Shown here piece after piece: positions 8,544 through 28,502 of a DNA stretch of 64,000 bases (the first letter of the stretch is position 1; each line of letters opens with the position of its first letter). The notes below the pieces were generated by a model that searched no databases, had not been told where the DNA came from, and saw only the letters and a list, made by a program, of their open reading frames with translations. Source of the stretch: Aquella oligotrophica (GTDB taxonomy: Bacteria > Pseudomonadota > Gammaproteobacteria > Burkholderiales > UBA11063); the NCBI RefSeq assembly GCF_002892535.1, contig NZ_CP024847.1:1364001-1428000 (forward strand), given 5' to 3'. The position numbers and the translations under genes are program-made.

Positions 8544-8804
8544 AACGTTGCCTATTCTAAATTATTGATGGCATGATTATATTGAAATCAATTTCCCCTG
8601 CCTACCTTGTTTTTGCCAGGGTACCATATGACTTACCTTGTAATTATTTACCTAGAGCTATTTGGGCGGGATAAATATTTGGTTTCATGGTCCTAAAATT
8701 CTAGGTTAAACTTATTGTGATTTTACAGCTTAATGTGAAATTATTTGGGAGTAAGACTACTTTGTGGTTTTATATATGTTTAACGATTTTAACGGAGTTA
8801 AGTC

Positions 8805-8867
8805 ATGGACAGATTGCAAGATGTTCCTGCTAATGATCGTACTGATGCTGGTAACCTTTACTGGTAG
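8805..8867 (+). CDS. Small peptide gene, 20 codons; candidate RiPP precursor ending Leu-Tyr-Trp
   Basis: ATG at 8805, TAG at 8865-8867. The start is preceded by AACGGAGTTAAGTC, a good GGAG ribosome binding site 7-8 bases upstream. The peptide begins MDRLQDVPANDR and ends TDAGNLYW. It is charged and acidic with no hydrophobic segment, so it is neither a signal peptide nor a membrane peptide. An aromatic pair at the very C-terminus recalls RiPP precursors; the crocagin precursor is known to end in Ile-Tyr-Trp. A terminator-like hairpin follows at once, then a gene for an M29-peptidase-like protein, the usual layout of a highly expressed precursor and its maturation protein. An alternative is a leader peptide controlling the downstream gene. 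Too short for standard gene callers. Confidence 0.6.
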   Translation: MDRLQDVPANDRTDAGNLYW

Positions 8868-8868
8868 T

Positions 8869-8951
8869 TAGCATTTAATAATGCTAGTCCCGGACTAAAT
8901 TCAATTTTTATATAAAATCTGTTTCATACACGTAATTCGGGACTAGTTTTT
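8869..8951 (+). terminator. Two overlapping hairpins with T tract between the small peptide gene and the M29-like gene
   Basis: Hairpin A: TAGCATT-TAAT-AATGCTA (8869-8886). Hairpin B: CTAGTCCCG (8884-8892) pairs with CGGGACTAG (8938-8946) and is followed by TTTTTATAATTT. The two share bases 8884-8886, so they partly compete. B has a long loop (about 45 bases), which makes it a weak or conditional terminator. This fits partial termination that gives more peptide mRNA than enzyme mRNA, or attenuation. Confidence 0.55.
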
Positions 8952-9002
8952 ATAATTTCCTTCTTTAATAATAATCTGATATAACTAGATAGGGTTTGGG
9001 AC

Positions 9003-9938
9003 ATGCTATTAACTGACTTATATAATGAGCTTTTGAATAATCAGCTTCCAATTTATAGCGATAGCACCCAAGTGCTCAATCTTTTAGATAAAAGAGGATT
9101 TAATAATTGCCATTTTAGTGAAAATTTTGATTTTATTAATTCCGCCACTAAAGCATTTGTAATCCCGACTAGTTATGAATTTCAGCAACAATCAAATCAG
9201 CTCTGGCAACAAAAATTCGCGAGCATATTATTACTTTTTTCGGCAATCAAATTTGATAATAATATTACATCAATTGATTATACACTGCAACAATTTTTTA
9301 ATCTTGATTTGCCTGACTTATTAATAAAGCGGCAAGGTTTTTACACACAAATAGCTAATTCTTCATCGTTAATCATCCAGAGTGATGATAATAACAGGCT
9401 AGCTGTAAAGTTAAGTGAAAAGCTAGAGACAGCAAATTTTGATGAAATACTAAAGCCCGGCTGGCAATATTCATTTGCTGAGATCTGTGAGGCTTCAATA
9501 GTTAATATCAAACACGATAAATCAAGCTTCTGCTGCGATGGTAGATTTAGCTTTGATGGGGTTATCTACACTATCGGGAATCAGGCTAATCGTGAGCGCA
9601 ACCATGATAGGCTTATCCGCCTAATCGCTGCGATTAATAATGCATCGCAAAAATATTTACTAATAGAAGATAACCAGATAAGGAGCCTTATTCTTGATGA
9701 TAAAGACCAAACGGAGCTTTTAACTGCGATGGACTATGCTGCGCTCGAGCGTGGACTTGCCATTACCGAATTGGCATTTGGCTGTAATACTCGGCTACAT
9801 TATGATAATATAAACTGGCAAGTAAATTCTGTAGCCAATGAAGGTGTCTATGGCACTCATCTTGGTATCGGAATGGCAAATAAATGCCCACATATTGATT
9901 TTATCAAAGCTAGTATCACCCCTCAGAACATTTCCTAA
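9003..9938 (+). CDS. Divergent M29 (aminopeptidase T/S)-like protein
   Basis: 311 residues, no signal peptide or membrane segment. The C-terminal half resembles the metal-binding part of M29 aminopeptidases: an early Glu in FAEICEAS (E160), CDGRFSFDGVIY (the family's G-x-x-x-FDG strand), ITELAFGCN (E256), GTHLGIG (H286) and PHID (H297, D299). These correspond in order to the Glu/Glu/His/His/Asp metal ligands of that family, so a metal site may be intact. The protein is shorter than the usual ~370-410 residues, and the N-terminal half is not recognised. It follows the 20-codon peptide gene, separated only by a leaky-looking terminator, and has no other close partner. It could mature, bind or release that peptide. 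Similarity was judged by eye and should be treated as tentative. Confidence 0.55.
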   Translation: MLLTDLYNELLNNQLPIYSDSTQVLNLLDKRGFNNCHFSENFDFINSATKAFVIPTSYEFQQQSNQLWQQKFASILLLFSAIKFDNNITSIDYTLQQFFNLDLPDLLIKRQGFYTQIANSSSLIIQSDDNNRLAVKLSEKLETANFDEILKPGWQYSFAEICEASIVNIKHDKSSFCCDGRFSFDGVIYTIGNQANRERNHDRLIRLIAAINNASQKYLLIEDNQIRSLILDDKDQTELLTAMDYAALERGLAITELAFGCNTRLHYDNINWQVNSVANEGVYGTHLGIGMANKCPHIDFIKASITPQNIS

Positions 9939-10055: not shown

Positions 10056-10149
10056 ATTTACCCCGCCAAAATATTTGGGTGGTAAATCAATTTGTGTGAT
10101 TTTAACGGGGTTTAAAAATGGGGTATAGTTTTTATACAATAGCTCCCGT
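10056..10149 (+). promoter_or_regulatory. Lipoprotein-family promoter module, copy 1
   Basis: An imperfect palindrome (10056-10087; ATTTACC...GGTAAAT arms with TTTGGGTGG in the right half) is followed by TGTGTGATTTTAACGGGG, then TTTAAAAA, then an extended -10 TATACAAT (10133-10140) and AGCTCCCG at the probable start site. Nearly the same order and spacing occurs at 22111 and 24929, each before a paralogous lipoprotein gene. I infer a shared promoter with an upstream operator. Confidence 0.7.
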
Positions 10150-10340: not shown

Positions 10341-13256
10341 ATGTTTAATCCTAAAAAAATAGTTGTACTGATTGCCGGTGCGACAAGCTTAACGCTAACG
10401 GCGTGTGGCGGTGGAACCAGCTCTAGTGGTGGTGGATATTCAGTAAATGTAGAAGATGAGCGTGCTCAGGCAGTAACAATTAGCCGTGTACCAACTGTGC
10501 CTACTAATGGTGGTGTGCTTCATCCGATTCAACTAAGTGTAGAAAATCATACTGGTGAGAAGTTGACTTTTGTTGATTCAAGAATCATGAATAGCAAGAA
10601 TCAAGGGATACTATCTCGGGCGCTAGATAAAGCAAGCCGTGCAGTAGGTGGCACTGGTTATAATTCATACGTAGGTATGGATCAGTGTAAAACTCTAGAA
10701 AGTGATGCTTCTTGTACTTTATCAGTTACTCCTGATGTTGCTGATGGTTCTACTGTTATTCAGTTGTCATTTAAGGATGATAATGGTGAAGTCTATAACA
10801 CAGCTCAGTTGGTAAATTACTCTTCATCTTCATCAAGCCAGAATGGATTTATTGTTAATACTGATAATATGAGAGAATTCCATTCAACTAATGATTATTC
10901 TGTTACTATTCCGTTTATAGCTGATGATGATTATCAGTCAATCACAGTAAGTTCAGATATCATGGCTTTAAATAAAAGCTTTGATTGTAATGGTAAGGTA
11001 ACTAAAGGTTCGGCATGTTCAGCAACTCTTAAATTACCAGCTGCACCAAAAGCAGGTTATGCTAATAAAATCACTATTAGCGGTAAGACTACCAGCGGTA
11101 AAGTAAATATTTATACCATAAATACTCGTGCCTACTTCGATGATAGACCATCACTCGAATTAACGAGAGGTCCGGTGCATTTACAGGCAGATAATACACC
11201 AGGTGCAGACAATAGCGTTTCAATAGGTATTGTCAATAATGGAGTCTTACCTGCAACAGGTATAAATGATAAACATAGCGCATTATCTACCGAGTTTGAA
11301 GGTGTAATTTTGCAGGCAAATGCTGGTGAAAATCCGGTGACTTCGCTTAGGCGAACTTTTGATCCTGCTACTTGTGACTTTACAGGTGCAACAGCTAATA
11401 AAATAGGGCATACCGCTCCTACTGGTAGTGCTTGTGAAGCTAGTTTCACTATGAACCCAAATAGCTTGGAACAAAATGGACATGATGAATACCGAATTAC
11501 CTATAATGGTGAAGCTGGTGCTAATACTGTCAAAACCACAACCATTTATTATACTGGTTTATCTGGCTATGATCCAAACTGTCCGACCTGTCAGCGTCCG
11601 CATGATTATCAAATAACTGGTACTCTTGACTTCACTGATACTGACACTAATACTAATGGTAAAACTCAGACTATTACTATTAGTAATACAGGTATGCAGC
11701 CACTACATAATATAGCGTTTACATTACCAGTGGTAGCTGGGCTTACAATCGACCGTAATGGTTGTGATACTGGTACTCTTGCGAATAATATCCTTCAGGC
11801 AAAACAATCATGTTCAATCGATGTTCATTACCGTCCTACTGCTAATGTACCTTTTGGTTCAGCTATAGCAACTGTTAATGCAACTAGAGCTGATGATTCA
11901 AGCTTCAGTGGTAGTACTAAAACTCTTTCGGTATTTTATAGTGCAAGTGCTAACCCAACATTAAGACCTGGCTTGATTCTTAGTAGTAGTGGTGAGAAAT
12001 TTGAGCTGGCAACAGGCGATACTCGTATTCTAACGTATAATCTGTTTGTTCAGTCAAATGGTTCGGCAACAGCTACTGAAGTAACTGGTATTACTACACC
12101 GGTTGCATTGAAGCCGCATTCAGCAAACTTGAATATTTCAATTCCAGCAACGGCTCAGTCTCCTGCTGGTGGTGCTCAATTGACTAATAAATTTGCTGGT
12201 GGATTTACCTTTGATCGAGCTAATTGGCATACATTGCCAGGTCAGAATGTATCATTATCTGGTGTCGAAGTTGGTGTTGTTACTTATGCGTATGGTAATT
12301 CTCAAGGTATAGCGGCAGAAGATGCGAATACGCTAGATCATTTATTTAGCTATGCTGGTTCGACTACACCTGCCAAATTCACTCTTGGCTATGAAGTAAG
12401 TGATGACGCTGCAGTAACTACAGGGCCTACTGTTATCGGTACTATCGATGAAAATAATGGTGGTTTGACAAATGGTGGAACATTTGCCCTGACTAAGGCT
12501 AATAAACTGATACTAGATGTAGACTATGCTGCACCTAGTGGAAAAGCTTTGGATCGCTTCATTGTTGACGATGCAAGTATTCCATATGGTTTCATGGTTA
12601 ATACTACTACACCAGCTACTGGTGCATGTCCTACTGTAAGTAAAGGAAGCGTGCCAACAACTCTTGCAGCTGGTAGTTCTTGTACTGTTAGATATGAATT
12701 TGTTGGTGATAGTATTGGTGCAGCTAATACTTATACCATAGCTACACAAAATCAGGCACTACGTGTATTCAAAACTCCAGCATATATGATCAGTACTGCA
12801 AATGGAAGAAAGCGTGTACAGCCAGCGGGTGAGTTTACTTTCCGCGTGAAACCTTTTGCTGATGTGCAGACTTATGTAAATCGTATCGGTACAAGCAATT
12901 CATATGAAGCAATCTTCTATGTAAATGAATATGCAGCACATAATCTGACAGGTATGACCAACGCTGGTATTATGGTTACTCCGATCCAAAATTTTGCATC
13001 TGATGTAACGGTAAGTCAGCCATGCCAGATTAACCAGACTATTGCACTTAGTCCAGGTGGAATTGATACTGCTACTAACCAACCAGTTGCTGGTGCCAAA
13101 TTCTGTAAGATTATCTTCACAGTAAATCCTGCTGCTAATGGTGGTAATCCAAATAGACGAGTTAACTTCCGTTACTCATCTACGACTGATGGTCTTTACA
13201 ATGCAGTGCTTAAGAATCTTAATGTAGATTCTACAACAACTGTAACTAACCCTTAA
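10341..13256 (+). CDS. Large repeat-containing lipoprotein, family member 1
   Basis: 971 residues. Type II signal peptide with lipobox LTAC (Cys 22) and a Gly/Ser-rich tether (GGGTSSSGGG). The rest is a chain of beta-rich Ig-like segments. Several have the pattern of choice-of-anchor/HYDIN-type modules: an I-x-N-x-G turn (TISNTGMQPL), then a Cys, then a short acidic/Gln stretch, then C-S-I-x-V-x-Y-x-P (CSIDVHYRP). A segment near residues 180-235 (NDYSVTIPFIADDDY ... DCNGKVTKGSACSATLKLP) is the hallmark shared with the four paralogues downstream. Probably anchored in the outer membrane or displayed on the surface; adhesion, structural or inhibitor roles are all possible. Preceded by promoter module copy 1 and followed by a clear terminator. 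Confidence 0.8.
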   Translation: MFNPKKIVVLIAGATSLTLTACGGGTSSSGGGYSVNVEDERAQAVTISRVPTVPTNGGVLHPIQLSVENHTGEKLTFVDSRIMNSKNQGILSRALDKASRAVGGTGYNSYVGMDQCKTLESDASCTLSVTPDVADGSTVIQLSFKDDNGEVYNTAQLVNYSSSSSSQNGFIVNTDNMREFHSTNDYSVTIPFIADDDYQSITVSSDIMALNKSFDCNGKVTKGSACSATLKLPAAPKAGYANKITISGKTTSGKVNIYTINTRAYFDDRPSLELTRGPVHLQADNTPGADNSVSIGIVNNGVLPATGINDKHSALSTEFEGVILQANAGENPVTSLRRTFDPATCDFTGATANKIGHTAPTGSACEASFTMNPNSLEQNGHDEYRITYNGEAGANTVKTTTIYYTGLSGYDPNCPTCQRPHDYQITGTLDFTDTDTNTNGKTQTITISNTGMQPLHNIAFTLPVVAGLTIDRNGCDTGTLANNILQAKQSCSIDVHYRPTANVPFGSAIATVNATRADDSSFSGSTKTLSVFYSASANPTLRPGLILSSSGEKFELATGDTRILTYNLFVQSNGSATATEVTGITTPVALKPHSANLNISIPATAQSPAGGAQLTNKFAGGFTFDRANWHTLPGQNVSLSGVEVGVVTYAYGNSQGIAAEDANTLDHLFSYAGSTTPAKFTLGYEVSDDAAVTTGPTVIGTIDENNGGLTNGGTFALTKANKLILDVDYAAPSGKALDRFIVDDASIPYGFMVNTTTPATGACPTVSKGSVPTTLAAGSSCTVRYEFVGDSIGAANTYTIATQNQALRVFKTPAYMISTANGRKRVQPAGEFTFRVKPFADVQTYVNRIGTSNSYEAIFYVNEYAAHNLTGMTNAGIMVTPIQNFASDVTVSQPCQINQTIALSPGGIDTATNQPVAGAKFCKIIFTVNPAANGGNPNRRVNFRYSSTTDGLYNAVLKNLNVDSTTTVTNP

Positions 13257-13285
13257 TCAATTTTTCCCTTTGATTGATTAAGAAT

Positions 13286-13317
13286 AGCCGGCTAAAGTAA
13301 CTTTAGTCGGCTTTCTT
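13286..13317 (+). terminator. Intrinsic terminator after lipoprotein 1
   Basis: Stem AGCCGGCTAAAG / CTTTAGTCGGCT with loop TAA, followed by TTCTTC. It lies 29 bases after the stop codon, separating lipoprotein 1 from the next two genes. Confidence 0.85.
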
Positions 13318-13425
13318 CGGGATGACTTAACCCAGTGGTTTTGATTAAACTAATAAATTTGAAAATTTTAATTTAATAAGTTGCAATTTTCAAGTTGATA
13401 TGATGCGATATGGAGAATTTATATT

Positions 13426-16146
13426 ATGAAACTAACTACCCCTCAGATAAAAACCTGTTTACTACTTATGCTAAGTGCGCTAGTAAGTAGCTGCAATAAT
13501 GGTAATGAAGCTGTCAATCGCAACAATAATGACCAGATAGTTGGTATAAAGCCACCAGCTCCACTACGTGCTCCGGCAGTGGTGATTAGCCGGGTAGCAA
13601 CTATTCCGGTAAATAATGGGGTTAGTGGTAATCATGTAATCCGTATCGATAATCATACTAACCACGATCTACGCCTGATTAGTGCCGAAATCGACAATAA
13701 CACGATTGACGATAGCTCCGCCAACTGCAATATTCTATACCGCGATGCGGCATGTAGTATAGTAGTAGCACCCAAAGATCCTAGGGAAACAACGCTAATC
13801 AGGCTAAGCTATCAAGATGAAGCTGGTAAGATTTATAATACTGCCCAATTGATTAATTATTCAGCGACGGTAATGAGCCGCGACGGCTTTATCGTTAGCG
13901 AGGGTGAATTTGGCGAAATCTATTCGACCAATGACTATAGCCTGACGCTACCATTTATCGCCGATGATGATTATAACGAGCTAGATATTAGCTCGGATGT
14001 GATGGTACTCGATAAACACCTTGATTGTAATGGCAAGGTAACTAAAGGTTCGCAGTGTACGGCAACTCTAACCCTGCCTGCTGCTACCGGGGCAGGGTAT
14101 AGTAATCAGATTCGCCTAACTGGTAAAAAAGCCAATGGGCAAATTAATCAATATCGGATCAATAATCGGGCATATTTCGAAGATAGGCCATCACTGGTAT
14201 TAAGTGGTGGACCACTGGCGCTACTTGCGACTAATGCTACCGGTGCGAATAATCGTGTAACCCTGCGGGTAGTTAATAACGGAGTATTACCTGTAAGTAT
14301 CTGGGGTGAAGACTATAAGCCATTATCGAGCGAAGTTTATGGTAGTATCAATCAAACTAGTGTAACTTCACCATTAGTGAAGACTATCGGTAATTGTAAT
14401 TTTGATGGTAGAGTCGGTACCTCAGTTGGTAAAACTGCTAAAGCTGGTGATATTTGTGAGATACGCTTATCGCTAAATAACATCCAGCAGCCACAATCCG
14501 GACATGATCAGTACACTATTCGCTATGATGGAGAAACTGGGACAACAACAGCTAAGACAACCTTTATCTACTATACCGGGCTTTCTACCGATATTGATCC
14601 CAATCGTCCAGATGGCTTAGTAAACTATGCCTATACTATTAGAGGTAGCCTAAACTTCTTAAATACGCCAGTAACTAATCCAGCAACCGCGCGTACCGAA
14701 TATATCCAGATCCAAAATACCGGGAAAGAGCCAATCAAGGTTACTAACTGGAATGTTAGTTATCCGGCTGGGATGACTACGCGTAATGATGAATGTAGCA
14801 ATAAAACCCTAAAAAGTGCTGAAGCTTGCAATATCTATGTAAGCTATGCGCCAACAGCCGCCGTAACGAATAATAGTGCTGTAATAGGCGAGATAAAAGC
14901 GGTTCGTGCGGATAATAATAGTACGACTGATTTTATCGCACCAAATAAAAGTGTCGGGATTCTTTATAGTGCGACAGGCACCCCACCGAATGTCGGTACA
15001 TTGACATTAAGTCATGGGCGGGTGTATCTCGAAAAAGAACAAGGTGTAACAGGAGATGTTAGCGAAGATGTGATTATCGAAAATAGTGGTAAGGCTGATT
15101 ATCTGATTAGTGGCATCAGTGCAGTAACTAACCCGAATTTGTCGCGTTTTTTACGGATGGAATTACCAGCTAACTTTACTTTACCGGGTAGCACGACTGC
15201 AATCGCTAATCCATTAAGTAGCTTTGGTATAAATGGGTTTAACGCACAGGGACAAGTAGTTACATTAAAGCCAGGGCAAAAAGCGGTAGTACGTTATCAT
15301 TATAGCAGTACTACAGCTGAAGCTGGCACACTTTATCAACAGATTATCCGTGCCAATGATGGCTATGGTGTACCAATTCAGGTTGACTATGCGACTACTA
15401 CTTCACCGATCCGGGTAACTGCACCAAAGGCAGTTGGCACATTAAATACCGCTGGTAGCTTACTTACTAGTGGGGGCAGTTTTCCGCTTACTTGGGGTAA
15501 TAAGCTGACACTTGAAGTCGAGTATGCTCCGGTGGGGGGCACTGCCAAAGGCTTTATTATCGATGATAGCGATTTACCTTATGGTTATGGCGTGGTAGCA
15601 AGCTCGACTACCTGCCCGACTAGTAGTAAAAGCAGTAGTCCGACTGATCTGACTACATCATGTAAGGCAGTCTATGAGTTTTTAAATCCGGATATTAGTA
15701 ATGGTTATAGCTATACACTGGCAACAGCTAATGCTGCTAGTCAGGCTTTTAGAGCGCCAACGTACTCGCTTGAGATAAATAAAGAGCGGCGCCGGGTAAT
15801 TCCAAGCCAAGTATTTAATTACCAGACTCTGCCTTTTGTCACGATGACAACATCGCAAACTGGTTCAGGCTCTAGCCGGAGTGTAACTTTTACTATTCAG
15901 AATTATTCTGCGGCTTCATTAACTGGGATGAATAACTATCCAGTCATAATAGTACCTGATTATGCAGCTAACTCAAATATCAAAGGTGCAACTAGCTGTG
16001 TAATTAATACTCCGGCAGCTAAGGCAAGCTGTAATATTAGCTTTACTTTAAAAAATACTTCAGGTAATAAACAGCTACCAGTAGCTTATGCCTCAACTGA
16101 AGATGCTTACTATAACTCGATTCGTAGCAGTATAACGTTAAACTAA
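13426..16146 (+). CDS. Large repeat-containing lipoprotein, family member 2
   Basis: 906 residues. Signal peptide with lipobox VSSC (Cys 23). It aligns along almost its whole length with member 1: VVISRVATIPVNNG at the N-terminus, the hallmark NDYSLTLPFIADDDY ... DCNGKVTKGSQCTATLTLP, RPSLVLSGGPL, TTFIYYTGLS, CNIYVSYAPTAAV, and a C-terminal module with GFIIDDSDLPYGYG. This indicates a tandem duplication. Codon choice differs: more AGC, CTA and GCG than member 1, which is closer to member 3, so the pair has diverged or been exchanged separately. Promoter module copies were not found upstream; transcription must start in the 13320-13425 gap or read through. Member 3 starts 23 bases after its stop, so the two form an operon. 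Confidence 0.8.
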   Translation: MKLTTPQIKTCLLLMLSALVSSCNNGNEAVNRNNNDQIVGIKPPAPLRAPAVVISRVATIPVNNGVSGNHVIRIDNHTNHDLRLISAEIDNNTIDDSSANCNILYRDAACSIVVAPKDPRETTLIRLSYQDEAGKIYNTAQLINYSATVMSRDGFIVSEGEFGEIYSTNDYSLTLPFIADDDYNELDISSDVMVLDKHLDCNGKVTKGSQCTATLTLPAATGAGYSNQIRLTGKKANGQINQYRINNRAYFEDRPSLVLSGGPLALLATNATGANNRVTLRVVNNGVLPVSIWGEDYKPLSSEVYGSINQTSVTSPLVKTIGNCNFDGRVGTSVGKTAKAGDICEIRLSLNNIQQPQSGHDQYTIRYDGETGTTTAKTTFIYYTGLSTDIDPNRPDGLVNYAYTIRGSLNFLNTPVTNPATARTEYIQIQNTGKEPIKVTNWNVSYPAGMTTRNDECSNKTLKSAEACNIYVSYAPTAAVTNNSAVIGEIKAVRADNNSTTDFIAPNKSVGILYSATGTPPNVGTLTLSHGRVYLEKEQGVTGDVSEDVIIENSGKADYLISGISAVTNPNLSRFLRMELPANFTLPGSTTAIANPLSSFGINGFNAQGQVVTLKPGQKAVVRYHYSSTTAEAGTLYQQIIRANDGYGVPIQVDYATTTSPIRVTAPKAVGTLNTAGSLLTSGGSFPLTWGNKLTLEVEYAPVGGTAKGFIIDDSDLPYGYGVVASSTTCPTSSKSSSPTDLTTSCKAVYEFLNPDISNGYSYTLATANAASQAFRAPTYSLEINKERRRVIPSQVFNYQTLPFVTMTTSQTGSGSSRSVTFTIQNYSAASLTGMNNYPVIIVPDYAANSNIKGATSCVINTPAAKASCNISFTLKNTSGNKQLPVAYASTEDAYYNSIRSSITLN

Positions 16147-16169
16147 TAAACCAAGGGAATTATAACATC

Positions 16170-18524
16170 ATGCAAAAATTATCTAAAATCCACCTAAGCT
16201 TGATTAGTGCGCTGGCACTTGTTGGCTGCGATAATGTCGGCGGTGGTAGCGAAAATAGCCAAGTACGGCAAAATAAACTAACTATCAGTAATACGCCAGT
16301 CTTCCCGCATAGTGGCAGTGGCGATATTTATGCGCTGGTATTATCCAATCATACTAAAGAGGATATGCAGCTAACTAATAGTCAGCTAAAGGGGATCAGC
16401 CCCAGTGATGAAGATAGCGCAGATGATATTAGTACTAAGCTACAGCTAGCAAAATCGCTAAAAGCAACCCAGCTAACCGATCTTATTGATCTATCTGCTT
16501 GTAAGATGATTAAGGCTGGAGCTAACTGTGTCGTGACTATTGAGCTACCTAAACAAGTTGCTAGCGGCTATTTTGATTTTAGCCTGCAATATACTGACAG
16601 TAATGCTAAAGCATACACGGTAGATAAGCTAGTGGTATTTAATGCTGGGATGGTAGCAAATGATGGCGTAATCCTGACTAATCAGTATATCGAGTCGGTA
16701 GTGGTAAATTCGGATAAATATACGCTGGCAATACCGTTTCAGCTAACCGATGATTTTGAATCAGTCGCGATCCGCCAGCATGGAGTAGCACCAACGGGCT
16801 ATAATCAGATAATCTGTAATAATCAAGCAAATGATGGCAAGACTAATAATAGCCGTAAATATGCCGCTAATAATAGCTGTACTGCATTGATCGAACTGGA
16901 TAGTCATGAAGCTAATCCAGAGCTAGCATTGACGTTTAGCGATACCCATGGTAGTAGCCGCACGGTAGAGATCAAATCCAGCGTACTTTATGGTAATTAT
17001 CCTGAGCTGGTGATTATCGGTGCCCCTGCAATACTAACTAATGCTAGTAGTAAAGTGATAACTATCAAAAATATCGGGACACAAACAGCAAAAGATGTCC
17101 GCCTCAGTGAGACTGGCGATACGACTTCGTTTGATATTAATAAAGCCTCGTGCGAGGGCAAATCGCTTGAGAATAATCAGCAATGTGTTGTCCAGTATCA
17201 AGCGAAGGGTAACAACCAGACTGCAACTATCACCCAGAGCGTTAGCTATAAAGGCGATGATGGGCTGGATACTCGGATGTTTAGTACTAAATATCCGGTA
17301 TATATAAATAAAGTTGCGAATCTTAAGGCTCCCAATCAGAATAATACTACCGTTTTACCTGCACATAGAGCTATTGATGCACAAAAAGAGTATTTCCCAG
17401 AAGAGCTAGAAAATATTACCGTAAGCTTTGATCAGCCAGTTAATGCGAGTGGTTTATATATGAATGACGGTGGCATGGGCGCACTTTTTGGGGGCAAATA
17501 CAGTGGTTGTGAGGGATACACTTATTTAACACCAGATAAAATAACTTGTAAATTAAAATCTACAGACTTGCGTGATATGATAGGCGACACAATCTTTGAA
17601 ATGCGTACCGCGCAGCTTGGTAACTCAACTGGTTTGATTGGTAATAAGCCTATTAATGAGCGTTATTACTATTATACTGTGCGGCATCACCGCAATCCAC
17701 GGGTGAGCGCAATCACTAATACTAGTCAGACATTTAAACCCGGCAATACGATTAAGTTTGCGATAAACCTAGATAGTAGTAGATATAGCGCAAATAATCG
17801 CTATCGCTTTAATCCCCAGTCTGGTTATACGATTACTAGTAATAATTGCAATACTGCCACCAATGGCTGCCGGATTGAAGTTGAGTATAAAATCCCATTA
17901 GCTAATCAACTAACAGGTAGTGGGACTATCCAGCATACCTTACCGCAGCAGATACTATCGATTGTGCCAGCAAGTGGAAGTAAGCCAAGTGAGTTACGGG
18001 TAGTTCATAGCCAGACTGTTTCAGTGAGTAAGCTCCCGGCTACTCACATTACAGATTTCTGGATTACTCATGATTTTTTACAAGGATATTCTTGTACTAA
18101 GATGTACAATACTAGTGGTGCTGTAGCTTGTTATTTTCGTGTGGCGGGTATTTCTGCACCTGGTTATCAATCAGTGATAAGAAGTTTCAATCGGTTTAAT
18201 GGAAATAGCTCTTGTTTATTGCCTGTGGTAGGGCTAGGGATTGGTTTTTGTCTGACATTAAATAACCTTCCTGATTCATCACAAGGAGAAATTGATCCTG
18301 GAATTTTTTTTAGAAACCCTATTCGTACTGAGAATGGATATACAACGGCTGCTGTTGGTGCTGCCTTCTATGTGGTACTGATTCCAAATGGACAAGATAT
18401 ACGTACTAATCCACCTGGTACTATTTACGTTGGGAGATTTTGTATTCCTCTCTTTCCCATTAGTAGTTCTAGTACTGGTGCATCCGTTGTTGCACCTTAC
18501 TGTGGCTTGCCACCAGAGCAATAG
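16170..18524 (+). CDS. Large lipoprotein, family member 3, with a divergent C-terminal half
   Basis: 784 residues. Lipobox LVGC (Cys 20). The N-terminal half belongs to the family: it has an N-x-T-x-x-D-x-x-L-x-N-S start, a degenerate hallmark YTLAIPFQLTDDFE ... CNN ... NNSCTALIEL, and VLYGNYPELVIIGAP. From about residue 400 (near 17370) similarity to members 1 and 2 fades. The last ~160 residues (from 18040) are Cys-rich, hydrophobic and T-rich in codon use, unlike the preceding part. That may be a replaced tip domain. Cotranscribed with member 2; a terminator lies about 75 bases after the stop, and the toxin-antitoxin island follows. Confidence 0.75.
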   Translation: MQKLSKIHLSLISALALVGCDNVGGGSENSQVRQNKLTISNTPVFPHSGSGDIYALVLSNHTKEDMQLTNSQLKGISPSDEDSADDISTKLQLAKSLKATQLTDLIDLSACKMIKAGANCVVTIELPKQVASGYFDFSLQYTDSNAKAYTVDKLVVFNAGMVANDGVILTNQYIESVVVNSDKYTLAIPFQLTDDFESVAIRQHGVAPTGYNQIICNNQANDGKTNNSRKYAANNSCTALIELDSHEANPELALTFSDTHGSSRTVEIKSSVLYGNYPELVIIGAPAILTNASSKVITIKNIGTQTAKDVRLSETGDTTSFDINKASCEGKSLENNQQCVVQYQAKGNNQTATITQSVSYKGDDGLDTRMFSTKYPVYINKVANLKAPNQNNTTVLPAHRAIDAQKEYFPEELENITVSFDQPVNASGLYMNDGGMGALFGGKYSGCEGYTYLTPDKITCKLKSTDLRDMIGDTIFEMRTAQLGNSTGLIGNKPINERYYYYTVRHHRNPRVSAITNTSQTFKPGNTIKFAINLDSSRYSANNRYRFNPQSGYTITSNNCNTATNGCRIEVEYKIPLANQLTGSGTIQHTLPQQILSIVPASGSKPSELRVVHSQTVSVSKLPATHITDFWITHDFLQGYSCTKMYNTSGAVACYFRVAGISAPGYQSVIRSFNRFNGNSSCLLPVVGLGIGFCLTLNNLPDSSQGEIDPGIFFRNPIRTENGYTTAAVGAAFYVVLIPNGQDIRTNPPGTIYVGRFCIPLFPISSSSTGASVVAPYCGLPPEQ

Positions 18525-18600
18525 ATACAGGTGTTATCATTTTTACTAGTGGTCAGCTTTGTAGTAAGAGGACATTCTGCAAATAACTCTTGCCGCTATA

Positions 18601-18636
18601 AAACACCACCCAAAAAGGTTGGGTGTTGTTTCTATT
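18601..18636 (+). terminator. Intrinsic terminator after lipoprotein 3
   Basis: AAACA-C-CACCCAA (18601-18613) pairs with TTGGGTG-T-TGTTT (18619-18631), a 12-base-pair stem with one mismatch, then a T-rich tail. It closes the member 2-3 operon. Confidence 0.75.
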
Positions 18637-18698
18637 TATGTCATTTTATGCAGTTTTTAATCTCTGCAGATAAACTCCCCACGGCTTGCAGCGTTAGA

Positions 18699-18788
18699 CC
18701 AGAGATTGCCAACGGACGGTTCCGTAGGAAAAATTTCCTTAATACCTCGTGGGCTCTGCCCCGAGGATAGGAAATTTTAGTCCTCTGG
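18699..18788. repeat. Large multi-branched palindromic element
   Basis: Outer arms CCAGAG (18699-18704) and CTCTGG (18783-18788) enclose a small hairpin ACGG-TT-CCGT (18716-18725) and a long hairpin: AAAATTTCCT (18730-18739) with AGGAAATTTT (18769-18778), and within it CCTCG-T-GGGC (18745-18754) with GCCCCGAGG (18758-18766). No ORF fits. It lacks a clean T tract and looks like a mobile palindromic repeat (MITE/REP-like) or an insertion-sequence end at the border of the toxin-antitoxin island. Confidence 0.45.
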
Positions 18789-18790
18789 CT

Positions 18791-18893
18791 TTACTCAGTC
18801 TTTTAAAAAGCAAGTTATTGATAGTTTAACAAAGTGTAAAGTTGATTGAGGTACATTTATCAGAAAAAAAACTGAGTTCTTACTCAGTCTTTT
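18791..18893 (+). repeat. 14-base direct repeat pair flanking 75 bases
   Basis: TTACTCAGTCTTTT occurs at 18791-18804 and again at 18880-18893. The second copy is the right arm of a terminator; the first has no pairing partner nearby. The duplication may be a scar of an insertion or deletion at the island border. Confidence 0.5.
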
Positions 18894-18895
18894 TC
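18864..18895 (+). terminator. Terminator-like hairpin in the island border
   Basis: A run of A, then ACTGAGT (18871-18877), loop TCTT, ACTCAGT (18882-18888), then CTTTTTC. No intact gene lies just upstream on the plus strand, so it probably terminates a lost gene or a small RNA. Confidence 0.5.
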
Positions 18896-19260
18896 TAGGT
18901 TAGGTCATAAGTCGAACAAGAAGCGGCTTGATGTTTTAGTTGCTTATATTGGTGCACTAGCTGTATCCTTAGCCCACGCCCTAAAGCTTCGGTATAGTGT
19001 CGGATTATTTCTAAGCTTGGCGAATGTCGCTTATTCTAATTGCTAGAATACTATTTTTTCTTTTTCTGATGTAAAAATGAGGTGATAACTATTTCAGTCT
19101 GGTCTTTAATCCAGTATGAAATTATAAAAGTGAATTGTTGTATAATGTGTGGTGATGTTGTTATTTTGAATAAAACTAATGGTTTACAGTTTGCATCACA
19201 GATAATGATTGATAAAATTATGCAAGTAGAAAAGTTTGCCATTTGAGAATTATGGAACTT
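18896..19260. other. Gene-free stretch at the island border
   Basis: About 365 bases with no convincing coding frame on either strand. A 63-codon minus-strand frame at 19051-19242 has low-complexity, Ile- and Lys-rich content, no ribosome binding site worth noting and no family resemblance. I see only decayed sequence here. Confidence 0.4.
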
Positions 19261-19467
19261 TTAGAATAAGCCAAGCCATAACTTTATAGCTTCGTCCACT
19301 TTTTGAATACTCAGTTCATCTAATCTCCCAATCTTTTCACCAACATCGCTTTTTAATATTGTGGTTATTTTATCCGCCATGGCTTGAGATATAACGGTCA
19401 GTCCATTAGATTTGTCTGGTAATATATTTATTCGAAAAGGCTCAGCATTACTGATGATACTATTAGT
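19261..19467 (-). pseudogene. MazF/PemK-type toxin remnant, C-terminal part only
   Basis: Minus-strand translation reads AEPFRINILPDKSNGLT, then AMADKITTIL, then VGEKIGRLDELSIQKVDEAI and LWLGLF before the stop at 19261-19263. This is the C-terminal half of MazF/PemK/ChpB endoribonucleases (P-x-x-x-NGL, a-x-x-DK-x-x-x-L, GR-L-D, LG-L). Upstream the frame runs into a TAA (19468-19470) with no start codon, and the N-terminal strands are missing. It is a dead toxin fragment in the toxin-antitoxin island, not reported by simple ORF calling because it has no ATG. Confidence 0.75.
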
Positions 19468-19603
19468 TTACTTTACGAAGAAGTGCTAAGTGACAGATGC
19501 AAAAATACAAAGGGTAATATGTTGATAGAAAAGTGCGTCTATGTCCATAATAGAGCATTGGATACTAAGACTTTCGCTATGGGTGGTTTCAAGAACTCTG
19601 ATG

Positions 19604-19864
19604 CTATTTATATATTTCTTTACGGTGTGCAATCCTCAGTACTAGTATGATTAATATGTTGTCTTGTATTTCACAAACTAGACGATAATCTTCTGCTCTG
19701 TAGCGCCATAATCGGGAAAGTTCGCTGGTTAGTGCCTTGCCTGACTGCCTAGGATTTTCCAAAGCTATTATTTTATCAATTTCTGCTGCTATTTGTTTTT
19801 GTACTGGTTTATCTAGCTTGTCAAATAACTTTGCTGCTTTTGTAGAAAACTGGACAGCCCACAT
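19604..19864 (-). CDS. relE: RelE/ParE-family toxin
   Basis: 86 residues, the normal size for the RelE/YoeB/ParE fold. Key features are the N-terminal strand MWAVQFSTKAAKLFDKLDK, then LWRYRAEDYRLVCEI and the C-terminal ILVLRIAHRKEIY, which is typical of ribosome-dependent RelE mRNA interferases (conserved Arg of WRYR, YRLV and the R/K-x-x-Y end). Its ATG overlaps the antitoxin stop by one base (TAATG on the minus strand), so the pair is translationally coupled with the antitoxin first. Likely a plasmid-addiction-like or stress-response module; the target is inferred from the family only. Confidence 0.9.
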   Translation of the reverse strand: MWAVQFSTKAAKLFDKLDKPVQKQIAAEIDKIIALENPRQSGKALTSELSRLWRYRAEDYRLVCEIQDNILIILVLRIAHRKEIYK

Positions 19865-20082
19865 TATAAGTTATTCCGTTTTTTTAGCTCTTCCCACGAA
19901 ATAGTTGTACTATTCCCAGATCGGATATCCTCTAATTCTTTCTCCGCCAGATATATATCTTCCATATCATCCAAATACTCTATTAGTGCCTGTTTGACAT
20001 AAAAAGACTTAGTCCGGTGAGTTTTTTCAGCAAGGTTATTCAATCTTTGCTCTATTTCAGCATCAAGCCTAATTGCTAACAT
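19864..20082 (-). CDS. relB: Antitoxin of the RelB/DinJ or RHH type, partner of the adjacent RelE
   Basis: The true start is the ATG at 20082 (protein MLAIRLDAEIEQRLNNLAEK..., 72 residues), because it begins with the ribbon-helix-helix strand MLAIRLD. The longer frame to 20184 adds a stretch without homology. The N-terminal RHH should bind operator DNA; the C-terminal helix (DIYLAEKELEDIRSG onward) should wrap the toxin. Just upstream, between 20101 and 20120, lies GTTATACATGTCATAC, a near-palindrome around ACATGT that could be the autoregulatory operator. Very similar in plan to the second pair at 21485-21956. Confidence 0.85.
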   Translation of the reverse strand: MLAIRLDAEIEQRLNNLAEKTHRTKSFYVKQALIEYLDDMEDIYLAEKELEDIRSGNSTTISWEELKKRNNL

Positions 20083-20101
20083 TTGCTTATCTTTCAAAAA
20101 T

Positions 20102-20118
20102 GTTATACATGTCATACA
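20102..20118 (-). promoter_or_regulatory. Candidate autoregulatory operator of the first toxin-antitoxin pair
   Basis: TGTTATACATGTCATAC is a near-palindrome centred on ACATGT, about 20-35 bases upstream of the antitoxin start, the position where RHH antitoxins usually bind. Assigned by position and symmetry only. Confidence 0.4.
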
Positions 20119-20245
20119 GATAATTATATCAGTAACGTTAATTCTTGTCAATTGCTTTATAAAGCATGATGTTTTTCGACCCATTTACCCAAATCTGAAA
20201 CTGTAAAAATCTGGTTTAATTTATTATTTTAGGGTATAATATTGT

Positions 20246-20488
20246 ATGAAATTAAAGATGGTCAAAATTGATTTTGATAGCGATACAGTTAAATTAATGT
20301 CAGAAAGAATAAATATTCTTTCTTGGGCAATTGGTGGTATTGGCTATCTGGGATTTAACATCCAATGATTAAATAAAGCTATTACCGTTATATTAGGATG
20401 GCTAGTGCTTCAATATATATCCTTTGCTTTGCTTAAAGTAAGTAAGACGATAAAAAAAGAGGAGGAACAAAAAGGTGGAACTACTTAA
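20246..20488 (+). pseudogene. Small membrane-protein gene with an in-frame TGA
   Basis: ATG at 20246. Forty codons end NILSWAIGGIGYLGFNIQ and then TGA (20366-20368). The same frame continues without a break, LNKAITVILGWLVLQYISFA and then a Lys/Glu-rich tail KTIKKEEEQKGGTT, to a TAA at 20486-20488. The whole would be an 80-residue protein with two membrane segments. The simplest reading is a Trp (TGG) to TGA nonsense mutation. Readthrough or use of the 40-residue product cannot be excluded. It overlaps the next tiny gene by 14 bases, suggesting that the two were a phage- or plasmid-like operon. Confidence 0.5.
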
Positions 20489-20588
20489 ATTAATCTTTCT
20501 AAATGTAGTGGTTATTGCTGGGGCTTTTTATTTACTACACTTAGCAGTTAAAAACGCAAAACAGAAATCTAAACACCGGCATGTTTAG
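20475..20588 (+). CDS. 37-residue membrane peptide
   Basis: GTG start at 20475, preceded by GGAGG at 20461-20465 (nine-base spacing), one of the strongest ribosome binding sites in the region. The peptide is LLKLIFLNVVVIAGAFYLLH, one membrane segment, then a strongly basic tail VKNAKQKSKHRHV. It is followed by an intrinsic terminator. Size, a single hydrophobic helix and a basic end recall small toxic peptides, holin accessories and small membrane regulators; no family is recognised. Confidence 0.55.
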   Translation: MELLKLIFLNVVVIAGAFYLLHLAVKNAKQKSKHRHV

Positions 20589-20597
20589 CTTTCCTAG

Positions 20598-20628
20598 AAA
20601 AAAAGACCACTTAATAAGTGGTTTTTTA
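20598..20628. terminator. Intrinsic terminator, bidirectional
   Basis: A-rich arm, CCACTT-AAT-AAGTGG stem, then TTTTTTATT. It serves the tiny membrane-protein operon on the plus strand and probably also the minus-strand DUF1640-like gene that ends at 20658. Confidence 0.85.
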
Positions 20629-20657
20629 TTAGACCGTTTTCCTAACTAACTGGTGAA

Positions 20658-20987
20658 TCATAACCAATGGAAGCCTTTAGCGAGCATACCGCCTATGGTA
20701 ATTACTACTGTTATTCCTGTCCATACCGTAAATTTTAAGCTGTCGTAACGGTACTGCTCAATTTTAGCAGTTAAGCGTAATTCAGCCTCACTAATATCCC
20801 GCTTAACTAATAGCATATCATCACCTTTATCAGCAAGTTCTTTTGTTTCTAGATCTTGTTTTATATCAGCTTTTACTTCAGCGATAATTTGTTCTAGGCG
20901 TTTAGCCTGAACTTCTGCTTGCTTATCAGTAAAACCAGCTTCTTTTAGCTCGTGTATATAATCAACTATCGATAATGTCTTTGACAT
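20658..20987 (-). CDS. DUF1640/CCDC90-like coiled-coil membrane protein
   Basis: 109 residues. An N-terminal helix (YIHELKEAGFTDKQAEVQAK) is followed by a long coiled coil and ends with one membrane segment (FTVWTGITVVITIGGMLAKG). This is the layout of DUF1640 proteins, which are common beside toxin-antitoxin genes on mobile DNA in proteobacteria; their function is unknown. The ribosome binding site is AGGATTGATTAATG. No toxin is adjacent on the same strand, so if it belongs to a two-part system the partner is missing or unrecognised. Confidence 0.8.
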   Translation of the reverse strand: MSKTLSIVDYIHELKEAGFTDKQAEVQAKRLEQIIAEVKADIKQDLETKELADKGDDMLLVKRDISEAELRLTAKIEQYRYDSLKFTVWTGITVVITIGGMLAKGFHWL

Positions 20988-21083
20988 TAATCAATCCTTT
21001 TAATGAGAATATTTTAATCCATTATGTAAGTCAATGTCAGTCGATTAACCCATCTTACAGGGCAAACTAGCACTTAAATATTT

Positions 21084-21311
21084 TTATATTTGTTCAGCTC
21101 TATATTCAAATAGCTCGGCATCTTCTTTTAAGTTTTGAGCAAGTAGAATATCTTTGATAAATGTTACGGGTAAATCTTGATTTTCTGATGCTAACTTATC
21201 AAGCTTAGCCCAATACCCAATTTGTGAAGATATTGATCTATGCTCAGCAATAGCATGCCTTTTGGCTACAGTATAAAGCTCATCTTCGATTTTAATTGAG
21301 TGAAAGCTCAT
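21084..21311 (-). CDS. ParD-like antitoxin without a partner toxin
   Basis: 75 residues from the ATG at 21311 (MSFHSIKIEDELYTVAKRHA); the ribosome binding site AAGGAAATTACC favours this start over the upstream ATG at 21356. The pattern IKIEDEL ... AEHRSISSQIGYWAKLDKL ... LPVTFIKDIL matches the ParD-like antitoxin family (ribbon-helix-helix followed by QI-x-YWA). No ParE or other toxin frame abuts it: the nearest gene downstream on its strand is the DUF1640-like gene almost 100 bases away. An orphan antitoxin may counter a toxin elsewhere or be a remnant. Confidence 0.8.
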   Translation of the reverse strand: MSFHSIKIEDELYTVAKRHAIAEHRSISSQIGYWAKLDKLASENQDLPVTFIKDILLAQNLKEDAELFEYRAEQI

Positions 21312-21484
21312 GGTAATTTCCTTACAATAATATAGCATAATAGTAGCACATTTCAAATTAATTAGTCAGCATCATATGAGGAGATGCGCCAAAATATTAA
21401 AGAAATACATTGTATTTGTCTGGATGTATGCAGTATAATAATTGTGTGATACGTTTGTGTTACAAAAATCATTGAGGATAAAAA

Positions 21485-21694
21485 ATGAATATCAGACTAG
21501 ATAATGAATTGGAGCAAAAATTAAATTATTTTGCCCATGAACTTCATACAACTAAAACTGAACTGGTAAAACCATATATTTTGAGAATGCTAGAAGATCT
21601 GGAAGATTATTATCATGCTCATAAAGCCTTACAAGATGAAGGCTCAATTAGCATTGATGAATTAGAGAAAGAATTTGCTCATGTGGCAGATTGA
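21485..21694 (+). CDS. relB: Antitoxin of the second RelBE-like pair
   Basis: 69 residues, MNIRLDNELEQKLNYFAHEL at the N-terminus (ribbon-helix-helix) and an acidic C-terminal helix that should bind the toxin. Ribosome binding site GAGG at 21474-21477 before the ATG. It resembles the antitoxin at 19864-20082 in plan and partly in sequence (I-R-L-D-x-E-x-E-Q-x-L-N), so the two modules may share an origin and could cross-talk. The toxin start lies 14 bases inside the 3' end of this gene. Confidence 0.87.
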   Translation: MNIRLDNELEQKLNYFAHELHTTKTELVKPYILRMLEDLEDYYHAHKALQDEGSISIDELEKEFAHVAD

Positions 21695-21956
21695 GTTTAA
21701 GCCGAAAGCTGCTAAAGAATTAAGAAAACTCGATCCAAAGCATGCCCGGCAGATTCTTTCCTGGTTGAGAGTTCGGCTGGATAGTGGTGCAGATCCCAGA
21801 TTATTTGCTGAACAGTTAACTGGAAATTTTAAAGATTTCTGGAGATTCAGAATAGGTGATTTTAGAATTGTATTTCAACCTGAAGAGCAAAAGTTATTAA
21901 TTCTTGTTGTTCGAATTGCTCATCGTAAAGAAGTTTATCATACTGACTTAAACTAA
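21681..21956 (+). CDS. relE: RelE-family toxin of the second pair
   Basis: 91 residues from the ATG at 21681 (MWQIEFKPKAAKELRKLDPK). A TTG two codons upstream is possible, but the first module also starts MW, which supports this choice. Conserved positions include FWRFRIGDFRIVF and LILVVRIAHRKEVYH. Compared with the toxin at 19604 it is a paralogue with the same C-terminal RIAHRKE(I/V)Y. Family role: ribosome-dependent mRNA cleavage, held off by the antitoxin. Confidence 0.92.
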   Translation: MWQIEFKPKAAKELRKLDPKHARQILSWLRVRLDSGADPRLFAEQLTGNFKDFWRFRIGDFRIVFQPEEQKLLILVVRIAHRKEVYHTDLN

Positions 21957-22011
21957 TTCCAACCTAATTTAGCTAGCTATAATTGTCATACTTGGACAAC
22001 TATAAGTATCG

Positions 22012-22038
22012 AAATTCACCTAAGACAGGTGATTTTTG
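22012..22038 (+). terminator. Intrinsic terminator after the second toxin-antitoxin pair
   Basis: AAATTCACCT / AGGTGATTT stem with a one-base bulge and loop AAGAC, followed by TTTTTG. Ends the plus-strand toxin operon before lipoprotein 4. Confidence 0.75.
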
Positions 22039-22110
22039 TATTTCTAGCAGGTAAAATCGACATCCATTAATCAATTCCTAGCTTTAGCAAATCTATTTTG
22101 CAACCACATT

Positions 22111-22202
22111 TTTACCCACCCAAATTCTTTGGGTGGTAAATCTATTTGTGTTATTTTATGCGGGTTTTAAAATCTGGGGGAATTTCATACAATAGCTCCC
22201 GT
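22111..22202 (+). promoter_or_regulatory. Lipoprotein-family promoter module, copy 2
   Basis: Almost perfect palindrome TTTACCCACCCAAA / TTTGGGTGGTAAA (22111-22140), then TGTGTTATTTTATGCGGG, TTTTAAAAT, and -10 CATACAAT (22186-22193) followed by AGCTCCCG. The -10 and start-site block is identical in ten positions to copy 1. It controls lipoprotein 4; the leader is about 80 bases. Confidence 0.72.
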
Positions 22203-22282
22203 AGCAAATCAAAGCTTAGTTTAAGCAGTAGCTTGACTAACTTTGGCTAAATTAGTTTAACAAAACATAAAAAAGGGAAATC

Positions 22283-24805: not shown

Positions 24806-24842
24806 GGGGTGCTTGATTTAAACAAGATTTTACAATCATGTT

Positions 24843-24870
24843 AACCCAGATTTTTGATCTGGGTTTTTTA
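24843..24870 (+). terminator. Intrinsic terminator after lipoprotein 4
   Basis: AACCCAGAT-TTTTG-ATCTGGGTT followed by TTTTTA; nine-base-pair stem. Confidence 0.9.
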
Positions 24871-24928
24871 TGCTTTAATTTATGAGCTATAAGTATAAGT
24901 AAGCCCTATACCCAATCAATTATTCTAT

Positions 24929-25020
24929 TTTTACACCCCTAAATAAATAGGGGGTAAAGATACATGTGTAATTTTAAGCGGGTTTTAAATTGCAGGGTAA
25001 AACTATATAATCATCTCTGT
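24929..25020 (+). promoter_or_regulatory. Lipoprotein-family promoter module, copy 3
   Basis: Palindrome TTTACACCCCTA / TAGGGGGTAAA (24929-24958), then TGTGTAATTTTAAGCGGG, TTTTAAAT, and -10 TATATAAT (25004-25011). The order and spacing match copies 1 and 2, while the palindrome's inner bases differ, so the arm ends (TTTAC...GTAAA) and the TGTGTNATTTTA block are the constrained parts. It controls lipoprotein 5. Confidence 0.65.
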
Positions 25021-25076
25021 AGATACAGTCAGCTTCTTGATTTAAAATCTATTTTCAAATGTTTTGAGGAAGGTAT

Positions 25077-28000: not shown

Positions 28001-28502
28001 CTGGAAAACTGGTCAAACAAATCCTTTTGGTGTAACTGGTAGTGATGGTGAAACCCAGCGTGGTAAAGAGCGTCCAAGCGTTCCATTTGAAGATGTTAAA
28101 TCTGATCCAAGATGTGTTAAAGATAATAGCACGGGTAAAATCTGGTTCAAAACCCTTATTCCTAGTGGTAAATATTCTGCACTATTAAAAACTGTACAAG
28201 ATTATAATCATATGACAATGTGTGGTGTTACTGGCTGGCATGTAGCGACTATTAATGAATACCATTCACTTCAGAACTATGGTGAAGATGGTACATTTAC
28301 TTATCTTAAAAGATATGGGCTAGATTTAGAGACTAATAGTGGCGTTTATAATTTTACTGGCAATGTAATAAACTCTGGTGGCAAGCTTTCTATGATACGC
28401 TTTGATTTTGCAGCAATTAGGGTGCGTAATACGGATATTACCAATACTGATGGTGAGGTTGATGCTGGTGGTGATGCCCCTGCAGTGCTAGTTGCTGGTT
28501 AA
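25077..28502 (+). CDS. Largest lipoprotein, family member 5, with two C-terminal Lcl/DUF1566-like domains
   Basis: 1141 residues. Lipobox LAAC (Cys 17). The family hallmark is degenerate (GIYHLAVPVYFGKDFNKVSV, then YCRNGYHAGSSCTYY). Several HYDIN-type modules follow (e.g. IVNIGNQPATGITI ... CGTDLAAYGNCNIEISY). At about residues 834-965 comes a DUF1566 (Lcl C-terminal) domain: FVRNGKCVLDKITGLMWPTD, CDYSDWVLPNINELKSLVNY, FFSSTLGQ, LLPVRH. A second, shorter copy follows at about 1010-1120: CVKDNSTGKIWFK, CGVTGWHVATINEYHSLQNY, IRVRN. Lcl domains are known from adhesins and collagen-like surface proteins, including Legionella Lcl. Best reading: a surface adhesin with a stalk and a tandem binding tip. 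Own promoter module and terminator. Confidence 0.82.
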   Translation: MKNILLFVLVGTVLAACNSAAPGAKGALVEVPDVTTTANDSKVYFDTFAAIPKVATPSNYIIRLHNDSNDSYQIVSATLSPLLVSDKNKALATLDKNNCSTITRHSQCGFILNFPANNTASYTLTTVVEDSSHKQHTIKSFLISDQNKSGANGINYSFLSTVNSHNGIYHLAVPVYFGKDFNKVSVSEGTLYCRNGYHAGSSCTYYKDGQVSKDELLLSKLSAVTADNRDVEVSGKSLISKSGTPFLLMSVPEDVELKPGSAPVKSVISIVNIGNQPATGITIDSSKLAAGVTLLPAGCGTDLAAYGNCNIEISYNGVSTNGSSILKLSHDYTSAKRTLVQQFMHIINRDEPALEWDNPPSNIFEGSVVHDEVSETFILKAKNIKFSAIKLSHDSNSDFTVAADPAGLCKGNQISIASDGSEECHITISYKPMTQLANPAIFYITATGSYIDATDTERSLAYPLALSYSAPFTPASLIQINDGNKIELKTIAGEPKDFVIKIENNSKYSISLGSPVFTPAIPDATIADPAKCLTIAPQSSCELSVNYDPKATMVNSMMSSLRLQVIKLNNNDISATSEFATSVVEYAAVSPSKPSLVVSFDKVSGNQTQDVSGYWVHKDNTIEFSYKATNTGDGIAKNISVTSSNGWTIDDTNCQSRQLSKGDSCQVKFSHAYSSVGQQELKEQDVTISYGYGNANDTDSIKLGTDTKNVVVYQMPNLIHVSGAIGQLDDVFPGSKLTTTFRIDDGYPGMPGYEVKIAHSIDINSDGLIWNNPSCTLDYQKMTCDILTDTDYSLLGESRKASFVSTGGLSLSNKDLNIKFRDFAVVGDNRPADFVRNGKCVLDKITGLMWPTDPLSDISNKPIRTIKEAMDSIEALNQENFCDYSDWVLPNINELKSLVNYSSSNFPQWLADNNGPNVAGLNRFGFFSSTLGQAGRYIVFSLHENIPYFPLSFLGVGSYLLPVRHDSTVKPIVTIWKTGQTNPFGVTGSDGETQRGKERPSVPFEDVKSDPRCVKDNSTGKIWFKTLIPSGKYSALLKTVQDYNHMTMCGVTGWHVATINEYHSLQNYGEDGTFTYLKRYGLDLETNSGVYNFTGNVINSGGKLSMIRFDFAAIRVRNTDITNTDGEVDAGGDAPAVLVAG

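Follow-up and report, generated by a model that had tools for sequence, protein, structure and literature searches.

What does a CgnB-like protein do when the only gene encoded with it specifies a 20-residue peptide ending in Leu-Tyr-Trp? Such a pair lies on the forward strand of the window, by which we mean the whole stretch of 64,000 nucleotides from Aquella oligotrophica analyzed here (Table 1). The chemical role of CgnB is unsettled, since it acts with CgnC and CgnE in the crocagin pathway, and a pair with neither an adjacent crocagin-type oxygenase nor a second copy is therefore a clean case for the reaction of CgnB itself. The pair would also be a very small RiPP gene set, and it informs the origin or the breakdown of crocagin-type pathways. 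We conclude that the two genes probably form a reduced, apparently intact crocagin-type RiPP pair, and we favour reading them as a working pair whose chemistry is left undefined. An initial annotation of this DNA, which placed both genes at exactly the coordinates given below, had guessed at a very small crocagin relative or a new peptide-modifying pair; sequence, fold, metal ligands, precursor C-terminus and clade all support that guess.

Table 1. Features of the gene pair, in positions of the window.
Feature	Position	Strand	Evidence
Imperfect direct repeat, upstream half	8738..8808	+	72% over 29 nt, 79% over 24 nt
Ribosome-binding region TAACGGAGTTAAGTC of the peptide gene	8790..8804	+	sequence reading
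Putative crocagin-type precursor peptide gene, 20 aa, MDRLQDVPANDRTDAGN-LYW	8805..8867	+	ORF, GN-x-YW end, Arg at -8, NF038375 score
Predicted hairpin between the genes, 12-bp stem, long loop, T-run	8868..8960	+	z -3.01, -17.6 kcal/mol
Single-copy CgnB-like protein, 311 aa, six predicted di-zinc ligands	9003..9938	+	phmmer, ligand alignment, predicted fold

By sequence and by its modelled structure, the larger product is a member of the CgnB/CgnE family with a predicted zinc site. A phmmer search of the PDB aligns residues 5-302 of its 311, nearly the whole length, with CgnB of Chondromyces crocatus (6zsv; E 3.2e-39, 31% identity over the aligned part) and also finds CgnE (6zsu; E 6.5e-30), while a profile of 24 family members matches the two at 2.5e-77 and 8.7e-60, respectively. 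The fold comparison with CgnB and CgnE that the initial annotation had proposed gives the same answer: the AlphaFold model (pLDDT 89.6, pTM 0.90) superimposes on 6zsv over the whole chain with a TM of 0.91, and its top four Foldseek matches are all chains of CgnB and CgnE (TM 0.91-0.92). Beyond these, the matches at E 0.001 or better are limited to three chains of the Fe(II) ring-cleaving dioxygenase NicX (TM about 0.5). According to PMC7910607, the iron ligands of NicX are His265, Ser302, His318 and Asp320, whereas the window protein carries the six-ligand set of CgnB instead of this His/Ser/His/Asp set. Its residues E163, E256, E280, H286, H297 and D299 align one to one with E161, E252, E274, H280, H291 and D293, the zinc ligands of CgnB as given by Adam et al. 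(PMC10070186); two of these six positions are occupied by K and Y in CgnE.

The protein had been described as M29-like, with ordered E/E/H/H/D ligands in its C-terminal half. The ordered series is there, but the ligands number six and E163 lies in the middle of the protein, and the M29 likeness stands at the level of fold only, Pfam Peptidase_M29 having no match in the protein or anywhere else in the genome. A plain M29 aminopeptidase was rejected, the protein having no Pfam match even at E 1. Neither Pfam nor NCBIfam holds a family for it, and we take the single NCBIfam line, at E 0.036, as chance. Besides this protein, the Pfam scans within the window covered its two flanking genes.

The smaller gene, with the product MDRLQDVPANDRTDAGNLYW, has the good initiation attributed to it, with GGAG 5' of its ATG. 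The peptide resembles CgnA and the NF038375 precursors in its length of about 20 residues, its three-residue core ending in Tyr-Trp, the Gly-Asn before that core and the Arg at -8; it differs in that the first residue of the core, a position with known variation, is Leu where CgnA has Ile, and in having an acidic instead of a basic leader. An x-Tyr-Trp core preceded by Asn characterizes precursors of the crocagin A family, and the GN-LYW of the window peptide is the GN-x-YW end found in cyanobacterial crocagin-type precursors. In PMC10070186, Arg13 of the 21-residue CgnA, which occupies the -8 place, was mutated together with two Lys, and product formation was severely reduced. With the NF038375 model for crocagin precursors, the window peptide scores 16.1 bits, short of the cut-off of 27; two cyanobacterial precursors (16.9 and 17.3 bits) also fall below it, and the Mycetohabitans precursor has no match to the model.

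By itself, the GN-x-YW motif is weak evidence, and it is the position next to a CgnB homologue that carries weight. GN-x-Y-W-stop occurs twice in the whole 2.82-Mb genome, against once in a backwards control, which makes the motif alone unconvincing, and the second genomic match sits within an apparent serine acetyltransferase gene. The window has 1022 short ORFs of 15-60 aa, of which six end in YW and one, the peptide described here, in GN.YW.

The leader of the window peptide has a net charge of -2, whereas basic residues in the CgnA leader are emphasised in PMC10070186. Six of the seven other leaders that we computed are basic (+2 to +7), and the seventh, from Francisella, is again -2. The charges of the proteins vary alongside, at -11 in the window and 0 in Francisella, where the leaders are -2, and at -13 to -22 in the six others, where they are +2 to +7; a connection between the two charges is suggestive but rests on few independent lineages.

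How far does the pairing recur? A single-sequence search of genome contigs found no relative. We searched a collection of 84,980 species at the DNA level with the pattern E-G-x2-G-x-H-x3-G-x6-H-[IM]-D-[FL], built from the window, CgnB and two relatives on plasmids, and recovered 64 loci. Four of the six ligands are present in these loci by selection, since the search pattern contains them; E163 and E256 are free of it and are kept in 50 and 49, respectively, of the 50 longer rows (pattern loci and two plasmid loci). The initial annotation had reckoned with the case that no small ORF is conserved beside the homologues, and what we find is a YW-ending ORF (15-130 aa), on the same strand and at most 1.5 kb upstream of the gene, at 9 of the 64 loci, with none at the other 55, some of which have little or no upstream DNA. 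All nine are loci whose proteins share a tree group with the window protein. Their peptides end in RTKLGNAYW, RTKLGNIYW, RSKLGNIYW, RSNLGNVYW (three), RSKLGNVYW, RRTAQNRYW and RLTNLQTYW, and an Arg stands eight positions before the Trp in all ten precursors compared, the window's included.

The proteins nearest to that of the window come from seven cyanobacteria (38-43% identity; L023, L046, L039, L043, L051, L064 and L011), whose upstream precursors end in GN[AIV]YW, followed by Mycetohabitans sp. B8 (32%) and Francisella sp. SYW-9 (28-30%, with 30% over 255 columns). In the four cyanobacterial genomes searched (L023, L046, L039 and L011), two family copies and a PhyH oxygenase, the counterpart of CgnC, lie on the same contig, whereas the genome of the window has neither a second copy nor a match to this CgnC counterpart at E 0.01. 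Francisella (L006) is like the window in having one family copy in the genome with a peptide, ending in TYW, just upstream; dinB-like and DJ-1-like genes follow downstream, which we list as a further likeness, while the contig starts at the peptide gene, placing the pair at a contig edge. Elsewhere in the Francisella genome a PhyH gene gives a weak CgnC match (E 0.0019). On a contig other than the pair's (L103, 5504-7782), a 495-aa transporter-like gene adjoins a PhyH oxygenase, and these genes could be a split part of the Francisella pathway. Of the two copies in Mycetohabitans sp. B8, the second has one altered ligand and is followed by an NRPS condensation domain; the sole PhyH match of this genome (E 4e-5 to CgnC) is on another contig. 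With respect to PhyH, this is at odds with PMC10070186, which states that every two-copy locus has a homologue of CgnC.

The same paper reports CgnB/CgnE homologues in about 100 genomes, with metal sites intact wherever there is a single copy, and candidate precursors for single copies obtained from RiPPER; our set of loci may overlap with theirs in part. The family is real and was outlined earlier in PMC10070186, the window adding a reduced form with a YW precursor. Literature searches on crocagin, on CgnB with a precursor peptide and on crocagin genome mining returned no title on single-copy pairs.

In its own cluster CgnB acts with CgnE, CgnC and CgnD, whereas the window protein is the only family member found in its genome. 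The initial annotation held that no full crocagin pathway is present beside the pair, and this extends to the whole genome for both parts searched: there is one family copy, hence no second, ligand-broken copy of the CgnE type as in a crocagin cluster, and no gene matches the cyanobacterial CgnC at E 0.01, nor does a CgnC-type oxygenase stand in the cluster. The oxygenase search covered the PhyH type, and PhyH-type genes occur at two places, both far from the pair. The one at 2678638, a weak match, far under the cut-off, to a carbohydrate-cluster oxygenase model, belongs to an apparent glycan cluster and was set aside as a CgnC. The other is a lone gene at genome position 763434-764291, which scores 23.5 bits against a cut-off of 22 (21.4 in another scan).

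This lone gene could do the job of CgnC in trans, the pathway being split between two places in the genome and yielding a crocagin-like tetracycle. The CgnC counterparts in the cyanobacterial clusters are PhyH genes, as this one appears to be; it stands apart from the second PhyH gene and resembles the pair in its distribution, a search of 23 other relatives (14 from the genus) having failed to find it. We nevertheless consider a split pathway of this kind unlikely, as the gene is at the edge of the PhyH model and has no match to cyanobacterial CgnC at E 0.01, and the genome lacks the second CgnB-like copy that, according to PMC10070186, was needed in vitro for efficient reaction.

It is also rather improbable, in our estimate, that the pair is a remnant, left when an ancestor's full crocagin-type cluster lost CgnC, CgnE and its tailoring genes, with the precursor and cgnB now decaying or idle. 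Two genes only remain, and sampled relatives lack them: searches of 60 other relatives (22 from the genus, many of these genomes incomplete), of 398 others of the order and of 397 others of the phylum did not find it, these samples overlapping and including incomplete genomes, so that no close copy is at hand to show selection on the pair. The phylogeny leaves room for such a loss. In a tree of 44 rows (of 60, two odd rows and 14 near-copies were left out), the nine YW loci, the window, CgnB and the second copies form one group with support 100/99. This first tree favoured a split of the window copy before the B/E duplication (95/96 and 94/92), a claim that we dropped: a smaller tree that omits Francisella and further long rows does not decide the order of the splits, and AU tests (p 0.13 and 0.19) reject neither alternative. 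A post-duplication origin, joining the window copy with the cyanobacterial B copies, is accordingly not rejected (AU p 0.13).

The state of the two genes nonetheless speaks against decay. Both ORFs are open, and the zinc ligands, the GN-x-YW end and Arg-8 are all kept, whereas the zinc site is broken in every one of the eight second copies examined (seven from the loci, and CgnE). Eight other B copies have 36 invariant columns in common; the window protein keeps 35 of these and seven second copies, CgnE included, keep 23-31, which argues that the window copy evolves as a working B copy. Francisella sp. SYW-9 supplies a second single-copy lineage, and the G+C of the pair (0.35) is close to that of the window (0.37), leaving no mark of recent debris or import.

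The surroundings of the pair offer some further observations. The other half of the imperfect direct repeat is at 10068-10121, ahead of the next gene, and the two halves flank the cassette. A same-genus genome (G014) shares the flavodoxin-like gene, the surroundings differ, and no empty site is demonstrable in this comparison. Downstream, 10341-28502 of the window holds a run of large genes (971, 906, 784, 840 and 1141 aa) that read as lipoprotein-like, the first with a weak choice-of-anchor D match under its cut-off.

The stretch between the two genes had been annotated as a leaky-looking hairpin. The hairpin itself stands, folding better than 200 shuffles (z -3.0), with a loop of about 40 nt and TTTTT after it; its role as a leaky terminator is possible, and is one of two readings. 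A terminator scan does not list it, permitting loops of 3-8 only. Folding all of the intergenic sequence (8868-9002) gives the 5' arm (AGUCCCGGAC...) a different partner, the bases directly before the cgnB start codon (z -2.4), and the longer stretch 8800-9005 folds no better than its shuffles (z -0.75). Rfam gives three sub-threshold matches, none of them located at the hairpin. Structure at this place recurs in part: four of the five stretches tested between a peptide gene and cgnB have z values of -2.4 to -3.7, the fifth, from Francisella, having 0.07. Hairpins lie at the same place in L025, L039 and L043, and no strong one lies there in Francisella, while the L023 and L046 stretches, folded without shuffles, show no comparable single hairpin.

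That the small ORF might be an attenuator for the downstream gene, read through its Trp or Tyr codons, and not a substrate, would suit its shortness, its terminal TAC-TGG and the two competing RNA folds, one with the T-run and one across the next gene's start region, but we set this aside as very improbable because in other lineages, too, this C-terminus and Arg-8 are found next to members of the protein family, and there the peptides are biosynthetic precursors.

For the working pair with undefined chemistry, we picture the following course. The 20-residue precursor would consist of the leader MDRLQDVPANDRTDAGN and the core Leu-Tyr-Trp, and the structured intergenic stretch may cause it to be made in excess over its CgnB-like partner. 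Given that CgnB binds CgnA (PMC10070186), the CgnB-like protein may likewise bind the precursor and hold its C-terminal Tyr-Trp at the zinc site, and the product would be a modified C-terminal LYW unit. For CgnB itself, PMC10070186 proposes a zinc-driven elimination following Tyr hydroxylation; in vitro, CgnA with CgnB alone gave no product, and there was no aminopeptidase activity (Adam et al., PMC10070186). This outcome implies that the pair uses an oxygenase in trans, carries out a reaction that studies of crocagin have so far missed, or is idle. If the chemistry is that of crocagin, beta-hydroxylation must come in trans, for example from gene 763434-764291; otherwise the CgnB-like protein would perform a simpler, oxygenase-free reaction on the peptide. 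As NicX shares the fold, oxygen chemistry on Trp is conceivable even for a CgnB-like protein, although the window protein carries the ligands of CgnB and not those of NicX. A wider idea, possible although we hold it doubtful, is that single-copy CgnB-family proteins are self-sufficient peptide-modifying metalloenzymes, a Trp peptide with a CgnB-like protein being the ancestral RiPP unit from which crocagin pathways grew by duplication of the protein and the addition of an oxygenase.

Another single-copy arrangement emerged from the pattern loci. Twenty-nine of the 64 (28 from Pseudomonas, one from Paucimonas) have a different short peptide, typically ...SGPENFGWAPLAWA..., ahead of the single-copy gene, a count that is not independent, since ten of these peptides served as seeds for the profile. 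In 30 of the 64, 25 of which also have this peptide, there is a divergent gene resembling that of L060. The L060 gene belongs to NCBIfam NF051887, 'PheS-related mystery ligase SrmL' (the model was run on L060 alone, and the other loci were assigned by tblastn). L060 and 24 further loci (24 Pseudomonas and one Paucimonas in all) thus combine a divergent PheS-like ligase, a peptide of 29-55 aa with a GWAPLAWA-like motif and a single-copy CgnB-like gene. The arrangement looks like a RiPP-like system, for which we found no description; as a guess, the ligase may have the peptide as its substrate or may be a PheRS copy that confers resistance. A literature search on the name SrmL gave nothing relevant among the matches listed. 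The genome of the window has no SrmL over the cut-off, and its one match under the cut-off has a parallel in all 14 control genomes.

A further Pseudomonas group with CgnB-like genes (L009, L031, L036, L052-L054, L061, L063 and L068), in which we recognised no precursor, includes one locus, L068, whose neighbours encode an N-formylglutamate amidohydrolase, an amidohydrolase and an amino acid permease. Viral contigs and phages yielded no relative, and plasmids two distant ones. On these Deinococcus and Thermus plasmids, the distant CgnB-like genes are directly preceded by peptides of 98 aa (L002, 3852-4148) and 85 aa (L003, 3918-4175) that end in CPCGTF and CPCGVGI, respectively, and are possibly another type of precursor.
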